From contig PLDK01000046.1 in the NCBI GenBank assembly GCA_003135135.1, positions 1 to 40,508 on the forward strand: DNA of 40,508 nucleotides, in the 5' to 3' direction. This stretch comes from Deltaproteobacteria bacterium (GTDB lineage Bacteria > Desulfobacterota > Binatia > Binatales > Binataceae). This document shows, in pieces, positions 20,527 through 39,705 of the stretch; within the stretch, counting starts at the first letter, position 1; the number at the start of each line of letters is the position of its first letter. The notes under the pieces were generated by a model. It was not told the origin of the DNA. It did no database searches and was given only the letters and a program-made list of their open reading frames with translations. Made by a program: the position numbers and the translations under genes.

Positions 20527-21021
20527 ATGTTCAAGTTTAAAGCCATGCTGGTGGCGTTCGTGGCCGGAGTGTTCGCGGCAGGGCAGATCGGTGTCGCCCG
20601 AGCAACGCTGAACTGTGGAAGTGGCACGGCGTCGAAAAAGAACCTCAAGGGCAACTACACCTTAAACTTCAGCGGCACCGAGTATGACGAAGATGGTGAC
20701 TATCCCTTTGCAGCGAGTGGCTCGGTCACGCTCGACGGGAAAGGTAACGTGACCGGAGGGGTCATCAACTGCAACATTTACGAAGAAGAGTATACCTCGA
20801 CCATTAACGGGGGCTGCTACACCATCAACTCCGACGATACCGGGTTCATGACGATCACGACTACGGGCGACGATGTCTGCGACTATGACACCGGTGTGGA
20901 TCTGCAGCTTGCCATCAGTAATGGTAGTGGCAGTCAATTCCAGTTCAGCAGCGATGGAAGCGACACTAATTTCGACACCGGCGCGGGAGATCCATTTACG
21001 GGTACCGCGAATAAAAAGTAA
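20527..21021 (+). CDS. Small secreted four-Cys protein, copy 1
   Basis: The 164-residue product has a signal peptide (MFKFKAMLVAFVAGVFAAGQ then IGVARA, cleavage after about residue 26). The mature part is Gly/Thr/Asp/Ser-rich and should be all-beta, with Cys at 30, 82, 97 and 118 that could form two disulfides. Repeated strand-like segments (ASGSVTLDGKGNVTGGVINC, GFMTITTTG, QFQFSSDGS) resemble an extracytoplasmic beta barrel or sandwich. No family is recognised. GGGAGG lies eight nucleotides before ATG 20527. Copy 1 differs from the others in DDVCDYDTGVDLQ and in the C-terminal stretch FDTGAGDPFTGT, where copies 2 and 3 share ETGEFEVFAGT. Confidence 0.85.
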   Translation: MFKFKAMLVAFVAGVFAAGQIGVARATLNCGSGTASKKNLKGNYTLNFSGTEYDEDGDYPFAASGSVTLDGKGNVTGGVINCNIYEEEYTSTINGGCYTINSDDTGFMTITTTGDDVCDYDTGVDLQLAISNGSGSQFQFSSDGSDTNFDTGAGDPFTGTANKK

Positions 21022-21140: not shown

Positions 21141-21632
21141 ATGTTCAAGTTTAAAGTCATGCTGGTGGCGTTCGTGGCCGGAGTGTTCGCGGCAGGGCAG
21201 ATCGGTGTCGCCCGAGCAACGCTATCCTGCGGAAGTGGCACGGCGTCGAAAAAGAACCTCAAGGGCAACTACACCTTAAACTTCACCGGCAACGAGTATG
21301 ACGAAGATGGTGACGATCCCCTTGCAGCGAGTGGCTCGGTCACGCTCGACGGAAAAGGTAACGTGACCGGAGGGGTCATCAACTGCAACCAGTACGAAGA
21401 AGAGTACACCTCGATCATTAACGGGGGCTGCTACACCGTCAACTCCGACGATACGGGGTTCATGACGATCACGACTACCAGCGATATCTGCGACTGGTAC
21501 GAAGGTGTGGATCTGCACCTTGCCATCAGTAATGGCAGCGGCAGTCAATTCCAGTTCAGCAGCGATGGAAGCGACACTAATTTCGAGACCGGCGAGTTCG
21601 AAGTGTTTGCGGGTACCGCTAATAAAAAGTAA
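21141..21632 (+). CDS. Small secreted four-Cys protein, copy 2
   Basis: The 163-residue paralogue of the gene 614 nt upstream has the same signal peptide with one change (A6V). All four Cys are kept. Differences cluster at residues 50-62 (TGNEYDEDGDDPL), 84-92 (QYEEEYTSI) and 113-126 (SDICDWYEGVDLH), the last with one residue fewer. The C-terminus GEFEVFAGTANKK matches copy 3. The ribosome site GGGAGG and spacer are the same as copy 3. It is likely exported and of unknown role. Confidence 0.85.
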   Translation: MFKFKVMLVAFVAGVFAAGQIGVARATLSCGSGTASKKNLKGNYTLNFTGNEYDEDGDDPLAASGSVTLDGKGNVTGGVINCNQYEEEYTSIINGGCYTVNSDDTGFMTITTTSDICDWYEGVDLHLAISNGSGSQFQFSSDGSDTNFETGEFEVFAGTANKK

Positions 21633-21751: not shown

Positions 21752-22246
21752 ATGTTCAAGTTTAAAGTCATGCTGGTGGCGTTCGTGGCCGGAGTGTTCG
21801 CGGCAGGGCAGATCGGTGTCGCCCGAGCAACGCTATCCTGCGGAAGTGGCACGGCGTCGAAGAAGGACCTCAAGGGCACCTACACCTTCAACTTCAGCGG
21901 CACCGAAACTGAAGAAGATGGTTACTATCCTCTTGCAGCGAGTGGCTCGGTCACGCTCGACGGGAAAGGTAACGTGACCAGCGGGGTCATCAACTGCAAC
22001 CAGTACGAAGAAGAGTATACCTCGACCATTAACGGGGGCTGCTATACCGTCAACTCCGACGATACCGGGTTCCTGACGATCACGACTACGGGCAACGCTG
22101 TCTGCGACTATTACCCCGGTGTGGATCTGCAGCTTGCCATCAGTAATGGTAGTGGCAGTCAATTCCAGTTCAGCAGCGATGCAAGCTACACTAATTTCGA
22201 GACCGGCGAGTTCGAAGTGTTCGCGGGTACCGCTAATAGGAAGTAA
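21752..22246 (+). CDS. Small secreted four-Cys protein, copy 3
   Basis: The 164-residue third paralogue has a signal peptide identical to copy 2 and four conserved Cys. Distinct patches are DLKGTYTFNFSG, ETEEDGYYPL and NAVCDYYPGVD. A serine replaces glycine in NVTSGVINC. It ends ANRK instead of ANKK. Directly after its stop the shared spacer is replaced by the inverted 105-nt dispersed repeat, so the array's right boundary coincides with that element. Confidence 0.85.
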   Translation: MFKFKVMLVAFVAGVFAAGQIGVARATLSCGSGTASKKDLKGTYTFNFSGTETEEDGYYPLAASGSVTLDGKGNVTSGVINCNQYEEEYTSTINGGCYTVNSDDTGFLTITTTGNAVCDYYPGVDLQLAISNGSGSQFQFSSDASYTNFETGEFEVFAGTANRK

Positions 22247-36147: not shown

Positions 36148-38376
36148 TTGGCAGCAGAAAAATCCGTAAGCCCGCATCGGCTTGCAGAGCGCAAGCGGCG
36201 CCGTCGCGAGCTGATCGCCGTCGGAGTTGCCGGCGCGACGCTGGTCGCGTTCGTGCTCGCGCAGACCGAGTTGCCGCCGCTCACGCGTCACACATCGCTG
36301 GTCTCCAATCTGGCGGTCATCTCGCTGTTCAACCTGAGCTTCTTGCTGCTCGGATTGATGCTGTTCCTGGTCGGACGCAATCTCGCCAAGGTCATCTTCG
36401 AGCGCCGCCGCGGATTGATTGGTTCGAAATTCCAGGTCCGGCTGGTCGCGGGATTCATCGCCGTCGCGCTGATCCCGAGCGCGTTTTTGCTTTACGTGTC
36501 GAGCGTCTTCCTGCACGAGGACATCAACAGCTGGTTCAATCCCGAGTACCAACAAATTCTCAATGACTCGCTTGAGATCGCGAAGACCTACTATCTGAAC
36601 TCGGCCAACAACGCGTCGCATTTCGCCCGCGTGCTGGCCGGGGAGATCTCGGCGCAGGGCCTGCTCGCGCCGCAGAAGCGCGACGAGCTCAAGTCGTTCA
36701 TCGCCAAGCGCCAGCAGGAATACAACCTGGGCACCATCGAGGTGTTCTCCGCCGATCGCAAACTGCTGCTGATCGACATCAGCCCGAAGACCCCCACCGG
36801 CATCGGCGCGTTGCCGGATTCCCCGATTATCTCGCAAACGCTGAAGGGACAGGCGCTCACTCGCACCGACCGGCTCGGCAGCGCCGACGTAATCCGCGGC
36901 TCCGCGCCGATTTACCTCTCGAGCGAAACCGACAACGTGCTCGGCGCGGTGCTGGTCGACTACTATCTGCCGCAGAGCCTGGCGACGCGCGCGACCAACA
37001 TTTCGCGCGTTTCCGAGGACTACTTCCAGCTGCGAATTCTTCGCCAGCCCATCATGAACAGCTACCTGCTGACGCTGGCGCTGATCGGGCTGGTGGTGGT
37101 GACGCTGGGAAGCTGGTTCGGAATGTTTCTTGCGCGCGGAATCACCGGCCCGATCAAGTTGCTCGCACGCGGGACCCAAGCGGTCGCCGGCGGCGATCTC
37201 AATTTCCGCATCCCCGCCGTAGGCGACGACGAGATCGGGCATCTGGTCGATTCCTTCAACCAGATGACTGCCGACCTGCGCGCTTCCGCCGCCGAACTCG
37301 AGCGCCGCCGCCAGTACACGGAGACTCTGCTGCGCAACGTGTCGGCGGGCGTCGTCGGGCTCGACCATGACGGCGTCGTCACCACGATCAACCCATGCGC
37401 CGAGCGGCTGCTCGATCTGAGCGCCGCCGCCGTTATAGGCCGCAACTACCAGGGAGCGTTTCCACCCGCGCTGGCCCGTGTGCTCGACGACGTGTTCGCC
37501 TTCGCCACGCGTCCCCGCGAGGCCCGCTCGACCGTCAAACTCGAAACCGCAGGTGGCGAGACCGAGCTGATGATGACCGCCAGTCCGCTGGGCGAGACCC
37601 CCGACGAGCCGGCCGGAACGGTGCTGTTCTTCGAGGACGTCAGCCAGATAGCGAAGGTCGAACGGATGGAGGCCTGGCGCGAAGTCGCGCGCCGAATCGC
37701 GCACGAAATCAAAAATCCGCTGACGCCAATCCAGCTTTCAGCCGAACGGCTTCGGCGCCAGCTTGGCGCGCGTCCGGGAATCGAATCCGCGCTGGTCGAG
37801 GAATGCACGCGAACGATCATCGGCGAAGTCGAGGATCTGAAGCGGCTGGTCAATGAGTTCTCGGCGTTCGCGCGGATGCCGCATCTGAACCCGGTTCCCG
37901 GTGACATCAACGCGCTGGCCGGCGAGACCGTCGCGAATTTCCGCGCGGCGCATCCCAACGTCGACTTCACCCTCGCGCTCGACCCCGCGATTCCACTCAT
38001 CCCGATCGATCGCGACGCGATGAAGCGCGCGCTGGTCAACCTGCTCGACAACGCGGTCGCCGCGGTGACCGCCATCAATCATAACGGCGCCGGTCCGTTG
38101 ATCGAGGTGCGCAGCCATCGGCGCCCCGACAATTCAATCGTAACCCTCGAAGTCGCGGACAACGGCCCCGGCATCGACCCACGCCTGCGCACGCGCATTT
38201 TCGAGCCCTACTATTCGGGCAAAAAGGGCGGCACCGGACTCGGCCTCGCGATTGTTTCCGCGGTCGTTACCGACCATCACGGCTTCGTCCGCGTAACCGA
38301 CAACCAGCCGCGTGGAAGTAGATTCGTGCTGGAGTTTCCTGTAAAAGACCTACAATTCGCAACGGCGACCGGCTGA
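36148..38376 (+). CDS. NtrY-like membrane histidine kinase
   Basis: The 742-residue sensor has membrane segments near 22-40, 48-80 and 97-121, an extracytoplasmic domain to about 300, a further transmembrane helix at 303-328, HAMP (around 325-380) and PAS (around 388-495). HisKA carries H519 in RRIAHEIKNPLTPIQLSAER, and HATPase follows with N635 (NLLDNAVAAV), DNGPGID and GGTGLGLAIVSAVV. The order matches NtrY. The start is TTG 36148, four nucleotides after DUF2905. Its likely partner is the receiver domain of the next gene, 51 nt downstream. No separate ntrX with a sigma-54 activator domain is in the window. Confidence 0.93.
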   Translation: MAAEKSVSPHRLAERKRRRRELIAVGVAGATLVAFVLAQTELPPLTRHTSLVSNLAVISLFNLSFLLLGLMLFLVGRNLAKVIFERRRGLIGSKFQVRLVAGFIAVALIPSAFLLYVSSVFLHEDINSWFNPEYQQILNDSLEIAKTYYLNSANNASHFARVLAGEISAQGLLAPQKRDELKSFIAKRQQEYNLGTIEVFSADRKLLLIDISPKTPTGIGALPDSPIISQTLKGQALTRTDRLGSADVIRGSAPIYLSSETDNVLGAVLVDYYLPQSLATRATNISRVSEDYFQLRILRQPIMNSYLLTLALIGLVVVTLGSWFGMFLARGITGPIKLLARGTQAVAGGDLNFRIPAVGDDEIGHLVDSFNQMTADLRASAAELERRRQYTETLLRNVSAGVVGLDHDGVVTTINPCAERLLDLSAAAVIGRNYQGAFPPALARVLDDVFAFATRPREARSTVKLETAGGETELMMTASPLGETPDEPAGTVLFFEDVSQIAKVERMEAWREVARRIAHEIKNPLTPIQLSAERLRRQLGARPGIESALVEECTRTIIGEVEDLKRLVNEFSAFARMPHLNPVPGDINALAGETVANFRAAHPNVDFTLALDPAIPLIPIDRDAMKRALVNLLDNAVAAVTAINHNGAGPLIEVRSHRRPDNSIVTLEVADNGPGIDPRLRTRIFEPYYSGKKGGTGLGLAIVSAVVTDHHGFVRVTDNQPRGSRFVLEFPVKDLQFATATG

Positions 38377-38427
38377 TGCGATCCTTACCGCGTTGCAACG
38401 AAACGCGATTCCCGGAGAAAATTTGAC

Positions 38428-39705
38428 GTGAATGAGACCGTGTTGGTGGTCGATGATGAGGAGCGGATTCGGTCTGCCTTGCGTGGAATCTTGAGCGATG
38501 AAGGCTTCCGGGTGGTCGATACCGGCGACGCCCCCGGTGTGATGGACCTGATTGCGCGCGAGAGTCCCGCGATCGTTCTGCTCGACGTGTGGATGCCCGA
38601 TATGGACGGCATCGAGTTGCTGCGGCGGATCAAAGCCGAACAGCCCCGCGTCCCGGTGATCATGATTTCAGGCCACGCCAATATCCAGAGCGCGGTCGCG
38701 GCGACCAAACTCGGCGCCGCCGATTTCATTCAGAAGCCGTTCTCGGTCAGCGGATTGCTCGCTTCAATCGCGCGGGCGCTCGAAGGTGACTCCGCCGGGC
38801 CCGATCCGTCCAACCCGCGCGGCCTGAGCGCGCAAGTGCGCGCCGCCGGACGCAAGGCCATCCGCGCCGGCGCGACCCCGCAGCGAACCGTCGCGCGATC
38901 GATCGTGATGGGCGGGCAGGGGCTTCACACCGGGCTCAAGACCGGCGTCATACTGCATCCCGCGCCGCCGGGATTTGGAATCGTATTCACATCGCTCGCC
39001 GACGAGACTGCTATTCCGGTCCGCTTCGAGAACGTCACCGACACCGGCTACAACACCACGCTGACCAGCGGTAGCCGCTCGGTCCGCACCGTCGAACATC
39101 TGCTGTCGGCGCTGCACGCGTTTGGAATCACCAACCTCCTCATCAAGACTGACGACGAAGTACCCGCGCTCGACGGCTCGGCGCTCGAGTTCTGCAAACA
39201 GATTGGTGAAGCCGGACTCACCGAGCAGGACGCGACCGTCGAACCGATCAGAATCAAACACAAGATCATCATCGGAGAGGAAGGCGCGGGCCTCGAGTTT
39301 ATGAAGGCCGAGCCCGCCGACCATCTGATCATCGACTACACGCTCGATTACCCAAAACCGATCGGCATTCAGCAGTTGCACTTCGAACTTACTTCGCCCG
39401 AAGCATACACCCGCGAAATTGCACCGGCGCGCACCTTTGGCTTCGTGCGCGAGTTCCGCAAGCTCGCCGAATATGGCCTTGCCAGCGGCGGCCGCCTCGA
39501 CAACTTGATCCTTGTCGATGACGACAAAGTCGTGAACACCACGCTTCGCTTCCCCGACGAATTCGCGCGCCACAAGGTCCTCGATCTGATGGGCGATCTG
39601 TATCTGCTCGGGCGTCCGCTGCATGCGCATGTCACCGCGTCGAAGACCGGGCATTCCGACAACCTCGCGATGGTCAAGGCGATTTACGCGTCGCCGCGGA
39701 GCTGA
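38428..39705 (+). CDS. lpxC: Receiver-LpxC fusion (UDP-3-O-acyl-GlcNAc deacetylase)
   Basis: The 425-residue two-domain protein starts at GTG with CGGAG upstream. Residues 1-118 are a complete NtrX-type receiver: D9/D10, phospho-acceptor D53 in VLLDVWMPDMDG, S81 in MISGHA and K103 in IQKPF. A basic linker (119-152) leads into LpxC (153-425). Catalytic parts are all present: GGQGLHTGL, E223-H224 (TVEHLLSALHAF), ARTFGFVREF, H382 and D386 (ARHKVLDLMGDL) and H409 (KTGHSDN). LpxC deacetylates UDP-3-O-acyl-GlcNAc, the committed step of lipid A. Here the AAA+/DNA-binding output of NtrX is replaced by this enzyme. Reading frame is continuous, with no sign of a sequencing artefact. No E. coli-like FtsH tail is seen; the C-terminus is short. 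Confidence 0.93.
   Translation: MNETVLVVDDEERIRSALRGILSDEGFRVVDTGDAPGVMDLIARESPAIVLLDVWMPDMDGIELLRRIKAEQPRVPVIMISGHANIQSAVAATKLGAADFIQKPFSVSGLLASIARALEGDSAGPDPSNPRGLSAQVRAAGRKAIRAGATPQRTVARSIVMGGQGLHTGLKTGVILHPAPPGFGIVFTSLADETAIPVRFENVTDTGYNTTLTSGSRSVRTVEHLLSALHAFGITNLLIKTDDEVPALDGSALEFCKQIGEAGLTEQDATVEPIRIKHKIIIGEEGAGLEFMKAEPADHLIIDYTLDYPKPIGIQQLHFELTSPEAYTREIAPARTFGFVREFRKLAEYGLASGGRLDNLILVDDDKVVNTTLRFPDEFARHKVLDLMGDLYLLGRPLHAHVTASKTGHSDNLAMVKAIYASPRS

Follow-up and report, generated by a model that had tools for sequence, protein, structure and literature searches.

A receiver-LpxC fusion beside an NtrY-type kinase as a candidate response regulator with a lipid A enzyme as output

LpxC carries out the committed step of lipid A synthesis, sets the amount of LPS in the Gram-negative cell and is a target for antibiotics. 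A gene in the stretch of DNA analysed here (40,508 nucleotides, referred to as the window) codes for an LpxC that carries the receiver domain of a response regulator at its N-terminus, which raises the question of how such an enzyme is controlled. LpxC is fused to a two-component switch in a broad range of poorly studied bacteria, so that control by a membrane sensor probably acts on the enzyme itself and not via its gene. From comparisons of sequences, we assign a probability of roughly 0.7 to the reading that the protein is a response regulator with LpxC as its output, which is controlled by an NtrY-type kinase via the aspartate D53 and evolved from an NtrYX system linked to lpxC.

The fusion gene and its protein

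The fusion is encoded by a single open frame running from a GTG start to the stop codon (Table 1). Pfam assigned the N-terminal part to the receiver family Response_reg with 107.4 bits (cut-off 30.2) and the C-terminal part to LpxC with 284 bits (cut-off 27), while the NCBIfam equivalog model for lpxC, TIGR00325, scored 250.7 bits against a cut-off of 187.25. The first-pass annotation had described one continuous receiver-LpxC frame, and indeed neither a stop codon nor a frameshift occurs between residues 118 and 153; a linker of 37 residues joins the receiver to a complete LpxC. All residues named there are present as well: the receiver fold contains the acidic pair, the phospho-acceptor Asp, the Ser/Thr and the Lys of a response regulator, and the LpxC domain, which exceeds the curated cut-off of its family model, contains all five residues that we take to be the zinc and catalytic residues of the enzyme (E223, H224, H382, D386 and H409).

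Table 1. Features of the ntrY-fusion locus in the window
Feature	Position	Strand	Basis
NtrY-type membrane sensor histidine kinase, likely fusion partner	36148..38376	+	Pfam NtrY_N, HAMP, PAS, HisKA, HATPase_c
GGAG, possible ribosome-binding site	38414..38417	+	read by eye; 10 bases before GTG
Receiver-LpxC fusion gene, 425 aa	38428..39705, stop codon included	+	frame, translation and Pfam
Receiver domain, residues 5-114 (D9, D10, D53, S81, K103)	38440..38769	+	Pfam PF00072
D53 codon, presumed phospho-acceptor	38584..38586	+	residue conservation
Linker, residues 115-151, variable and fast-evolving	38770..38880	+	between Pfam matches
LpxC domain, residues 152-420 (E223, H224, H382, D386, H409)	38881..39687	+	Pfam PF03331, TIGR00325

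The receiver had also been called NtrX-like, and this was confirmed by the NtrX model NF051870, which was the top response-regulator model on the fusion with 124.8 bits over residues 4-121. This score covers the receiver part only and compares with a cut-off of 600 for a full-length NtrX, and Pfam detected neither an AAA+ nor an HTH domain in the window protein. Likewise, the model for LpxC-FabZ fusions (NF009667) reached 206.6 bits against a cut-off of 465 and matched the LpxC part only. Among solved structures, the C-terminal part matched LpxC chains and the N-terminal part matched receivers such as 4d6x and 5m7n, which are presumably NtrX receivers.

In the window's genome, a draft assembly of 51 contigs that is 98% complete, the fusion is the only LpxC found, a search for a second, ordinary LpxC having yielded none. 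LpxK and LpxD are present, and the fusion as the sole LpxC alongside them is predicted to be a deacetylase. A scan around the operon returned no promoter-like site, and its 6 terminator-like sites compare with a mean of 3.8 in shuffled sequence. Elsewhere in the window, three tandem genes on the + strand (20527-21021, 21141-21632 and 21752-22246) code for proteins of 163-164 aa whose start resembles a signal peptide; they show 84-87% identity to the first one and have no Pfam match.

Spread, conservation and selection

Whether receiver-LpxC architectures occur in other genomes had been raised by the first-pass annotation, and our searches showed that the same architecture recurs. An LpxC match was obtained in 56 of the 58 relatives searched, and all 30 loci fetched from this search, one of which is the window, have a receiver ahead of LpxC, with one locus (L017) being cut by a contig end. 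For the phylum, we used the LpxC part alone as query against 395 genomes drawn evenly from a larger group. The matches fell into two score groups, one of 89 places in 88 genomes at 247-610 bits and a second one starting at 208 bits. The 89 places were counted by hand with every one accounted for and consist of the window and six relatives from the loci already fetched (L001-L030), 68 fetched loci, 13 later loci and G259, which is equated with L069 on the basis of matching place, size and score. The receiver lies in the LpxC frame in 88 of these 89 places of the window's group, although it is partial in one of them (L214, whose genome is 8% contaminated). The exception is L191 (genome G158), where the receiver forms a separate frame of 117 aa directly upstream of an AAA-LpxC frame, representing either a true split or an assembly frameshift. 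The 68 fetched loci comprise 49 of the REC-LpxC type, 18 with an AAA+ domain in between, and the split case.

Both architectures were also present among the best 80 matches kept when named genomes were scanned with receiver patterns; the MAGs concerned are recorded as Deltaproteobacteria, Thermodesulfobacteriota, Nitrospinota and Thermodesulfovibrionia; two of these MAGs belong to the window's class (OFTM157, G054 = G343, and NC_groundwater_1023, G047 = G344). A plasmid search gave no record covering 80% of the query among the 5000 best ones, and the five rows listed match in the LpxC part only. Two genomes of one genus of another family, G300 and G258, each contain a solo LpxC and a divergent fused second copy (L249 and L248 in G300, G258:C122 and L311 in G258); the solo lpxC of G300 is followed by ntrY, next to which no ntrX lies on the same strand. 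Another locus, L310 (G376), codes for an LpxC of 451 aa without receiver near an ordinary ntrY-ntrX pair. As a separate observation, eight listed genomes of family f51, which are 99-100% complete, gave no LpxC match and another f51 genome has one, so a loss of lipid A synthesis is possible there.

The draft state of the window's assembly might suggest that the fused frame is an artefact of assembly or frame reading. We regard the chance of this as negligible: many genomes, the single-contig genomes G051 and G168 among them, have the architecture, with linkers that differ, and this recurrence rules out an assembly artefact.

The functional residues of both domains are almost invariant. In a set of 112 proteins with receiver and LpxC, which includes at least one genome entered twice (L068 and L227) as well as the cut, split and partial cases L017, L191 and L214, D9 and D10 are present in each of the 109 rows that can be read there, and D53 is present in 109 of 110, being absent only from the partial receiver of L214. 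Position 81 is Ser or Thr in 111 of 111 rows, and K103 as well as the five LpxC residues (E, H, H, D, H) are retained by all 112 proteins. The same holds for the 13 later fused loci, of which 13 retain the five receiver residues with D53 included, and all 12 fully readable ones retain the five LpxC residues (L309 is cut). When the window was compared with seven relatives, the receiver had dN/dS values of 0.04-0.13, LpxC values of 0.11-0.23 and the linker values of 0.12-0.95, with the receiver below LpxC in 7 of 7 comparisons, all of which share the window sequence and some of which have a dS above 1. Purifying selection on the receiver is thus strong and exceeds that on LpxC.

The first-pass annotation had named decayed receivers in the homologues as a sign of a dead appendage. 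The conservation of the receiver residues and the dN/dS values led us to reject such an appendage, and the receivers of the homologues are not decayed. A milder variant regards the receiver as a passive leftover or as an aid to solubility or folding, and it has some plausibility, as gene fusions can be neutral and solo LpxC works without a receiver. It is nevertheless very improbable, given a phospho-site kept in more than 100 homologues, the lower dN/dS of the receiver in every comparison and the longer forms described below, in which an AAA+ domain has decayed and the receiver has not.

The NtrY kinase and the origin of the fusion

The ntrY gene ends 51 bp upstream of the fusion on the same strand, and this gap, as the basis for the proposal, suggests co-transcription of both genes. 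The kinase contains the H-box HEIKNP at His519 and is the only NtrY_N match in the window's genome. All 29 complete-fusion loci (the window and 28 relatives, leaving out the cut locus L017) encode the C-terminus of NtrY immediately ahead of the fusion on the same strand, and the fusion occupies the position expected for NtrX. None of the proteins in the window's genome exceeded the NF051870 cut-off of 600 as a stand-alone NtrX, the best one scoring 407 bits; the evidence is weak, as one relative (L078) has an NtrX that itself scores only 507.

We also looked for NtrY_N in 15 genomes that contain the fusion without NtrY beside it. A match was obtained in 10 of them, one below the cut-off, and in none of these 10 was a complete NtrX seen beside NtrY (a contig ends within 1.3 kb in three), which fits the fusion being the partner of NtrY. 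These cases may not be independent of each other, because the fused form is one clade (see below). In the other 5 of 15, two of which are less than 80% complete, NtrY_N was not found, so the kinase may differ there. This also bears on a reading in which the receiver brings LpxC to the membrane by binding NtrY and phosphorylation releases it, so that location and not catalysis is controlled. NtrY does have a predicted membrane N-terminal region (NtrY_N), and a LapB homologue localises LpxC to the inner membrane in N. meningitidis, according to PMC12444477; NtrY_N was not found in 5 of the 15 unlinked-fusion genomes searched, and we regard such recruitment as improbable. In family f65, two loci (L241 and L243) code for large receiver-containing proteins of 850 and 881 aa, which may be a different partner kinase; their genes have the same orientation as REC-AAA-LpxC and lie some 0.7 kb ahead of it.

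The genomes with solo LpxC show how lpxC and ntrYX are arranged without fusion. Solo LpxC occurred in 18 loci among the best 80 matches of the named scan, with lpxC, ntrY and the gene for a receiver protein on one strand in 18 of 18, a set that is biased because the scan searched for receivers. We also searched for NtrY in 22 hand-picked solo-LpxC genomes from the phylum listing (including G300 with its additional fused copy) and found it in 21. A REC-AAA regulator follows NtrY on the same strand in 17 of these 21 loci, in contrast to the 10 unlinked-fusion genomes with NtrY described above. In 11 of the 21, the 1.5-kb flank immediately upstream of ntrY contains lpxC. A same-strand regulator of this type beside NtrY is absent in 4 of 21 loci of solo (or solo plus fused) genomes, one of which (G318) has a REC-AAA regulator nearby on the other strand.

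A further form of the fusion is represented by 23 proteins with the order (REC-)AAA-LpxC (INTERMEDIATES), with the receiver split off in one. In L069, the NtrX model matched over positions 4-448 of 452 and is followed by LpxC, which indicates that LpxC became attached to a former whole NtrX. The AAA+ domains of the four REC-AAA-LpxC proteins scanned with Pfam scored 71-99 bits, compared to 249 in ordinary NtrX. Walker A is present in 23 of 23 proteins, whereas all 23 lack both the GAFTGA loop and the glutamate of Walker B and have lysine in place of the arginine of the WPGNxRELKN motif; we take GAFTGA to be the sigma-54 loop and the Walker B glutamate to be catalytic. As a control, we analysed 57 ordinary NtrX-like proteins, of which 56 have the arginine and one was unread at this site. 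Among the twelve commonest variants, GAFTGA or GSFTGA occurs in 36 of 57, so the loop varies in the control too, and the Walker B glutamate occurs in 44 of 46. Because loop, glutamate and arginine are lost throughout with Walker A kept, the transcription machinery of the REC-AAA-LpxC forms is decayed as judged by these motifs, with the receiver being intact. The remaining AAA+ domain is probably an ATP-binding, hydrolysis-dead scaffold, and its retained ATP site hints at control of assembly. The REC-LpxC proteins, including the window form, lack AAA+ and HTH domains and have a linker of 32 residues in the median (24-65, n = 89).

Taken as a history, the starting point would have been lpxC linked to an NtrYX system whose NtrX controlled transcription. 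LpxC would then have been joined to the C-terminus of NtrX, short-circuiting the transcriptional control, after which the AAA+ domain would have lost sigma-54 contact and hydrolysis, and finally HTH and AAA+ would have been deleted, leaving REC-linker-LpxC. We infer this order of the domain losses from the forms described above.

In a tree of 135 LpxC rows (quick search; 26 names left out as near-copies, cut or partial rows), the fused domains form one group against 38 solo rows with an SH-aLRT support of 100. AU tests were run with 123 rows after dropping 12 more, including the long branches L248, L204, L215, L060 and L250, and rejected neither a single clade of the REC-AAA-LpxC rows (p-AU 0.618) nor a single clade of the REC-LpxC rows (p-AU 0.449). 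The LpxC tree thus fits a single loss of AAA+, repeated losses or REC-LpxC as the first form, and we prefer the loss of AAA+ because REC-AAA-HTH is the ordinary order of NtrX. The fused receivers did not form one clade in a poorly resolved receiver tree of 118 columns, calculated from a subsample of the fused rows and every second ordinary NtrX. Fused and solo LpxC are present in different genomes of one family (e.g. f38 and f59), which makes sideways transfer or replacement possible. Because the fused rows are one clade, the correlations with the kinase and with the C-terminal tail may go back to one event.

Mode of control and comparison with known systems

The fused enzymes differ from solo LpxC at their C-terminal ends: 14-30 residues follow the last catalytic His in the fused proteins (median 16, n = 112) versus 22-49 in the solo ones (median 45, n = 49, with some genes entered twice, e.g. 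L042 and L259), 5 of which have 30 or fewer. A tail of about 30 residues of solo LpxC is missing from fused LpxC. By the title of a reference in PMC3333781, FtsH needs the C-terminal end of LpxC to degrade the enzyme in E. coli, and LpxC control in lineages without a C-terminal degron is still being worked out, as stated in PMC12444477. It looks as if one control mode was given up as another was gained, maybe in one event.

The short tails could also mean that the receiver sets the amount of LpxC, with phosphorylation hiding or exposing the protein to a protease and thereby replacing the lost tail. The difference in length and the role of the C-terminus in E. coli speak for this possibility; as the fused form is one clade and the tail difference may be a single event, we consider it unlikely, though less so than recruitment to the membrane, and both readings still compete with control of activity. 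In the preferred reading, NtrY would sense a signal and phosphorylate D53 of the receiver, which would alter receiver dimerisation or the contact between receiver and LpxC and thus determine how active the deacetylase is and how much flux enters lipid A. We lean weakly towards phosphorylation raising the output of LpxC.

Direct two-component control of LpxC via D53 had already been proposed in the first-pass annotation. The sequences support the proposal in part, with the phospho-site kept in more than 100 homologues, strong purifying selection on the receiver, an NtrY kinase in the partner position, and the parts of a transcription factor decayed in the REC-AAA-LpxC forms and the receiver not. 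For the wider proposal that an lpxC-linked NtrYX system turned into a direct phospho-switch on LpxC via an NtrX-LpxC stage, replacing tail-dependent proteolysis across many families of the phylum, we see about even chances. If the reading is true, an essential biosynthetic enzyme joins the outputs of response regulators, with a sensor kinase wired straight to it, and living intermediates show transcriptional control turning into enzymatic control. The LpxC switch could then be tested directly on a single kinase, a single aspartate and a single activity.

For other bacteria, publications report independent links between two-component systems and lpxC (PMC3333781, PMC12444477). NtrYX lowers lpxC transcription in the two alphaproteobacteria R. 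sphaeroides and C. crescentus (PMC12444477), and no NtrX site was found at lpxC in R. sphaeroides, according to PMC7240162. For the response regulator DVU2934 of D. vulgaris, PMC3333781 gives lpxC as the single reported target, and places lpxC of S. fumaroxidans directly upstream of an operon orthologous to that of DVU2934. Compared by gene order, this arrangement is much like the lpxC-ntrY-ntrX order of the solo genomes analysed here. DVU2934 acts by DNA binding, whereas the window system would act by fusion. In the titles and beginnings of abstracts of the open-access papers listed by our searches, we found no description of a receiver-LpxC fusion, and LpxC as the output of a response regulator, with surviving intermediates, is new to our knowledge.

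The window system resembles NtrY-NtrX in its NtrY-type kinase directly upstream, in a receiver that scores best with the NtrX model and in longer relatives that keep a whole NtrX-like stretch (L069). It differs from NtrX, which consists of a receiver, a sigma-54 AAA+ domain and a Fis-type HTH, because the output of the window protein is an enzyme and not DNA binding. As an LpxC (UDP-3-O-acyl-N-acetylglucosamine deacetylase), the fusion keeps the whole domain with the catalytic and zinc residues; unlike the solo LpxC of the phylum, it has an N-terminal receiver, lacks the long C-terminal tail and belongs to its own clade. LpxC is also part of a fused protein in LpxC-FabZ (NF009667), but the partner there is a dehydratase of the same pathway, whereas the partner in the window is a signalling domain. 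Enzyme outputs are of a known kind among response regulators, and those of the CheB type have the receiver in front of the enzyme, as in the window protein.
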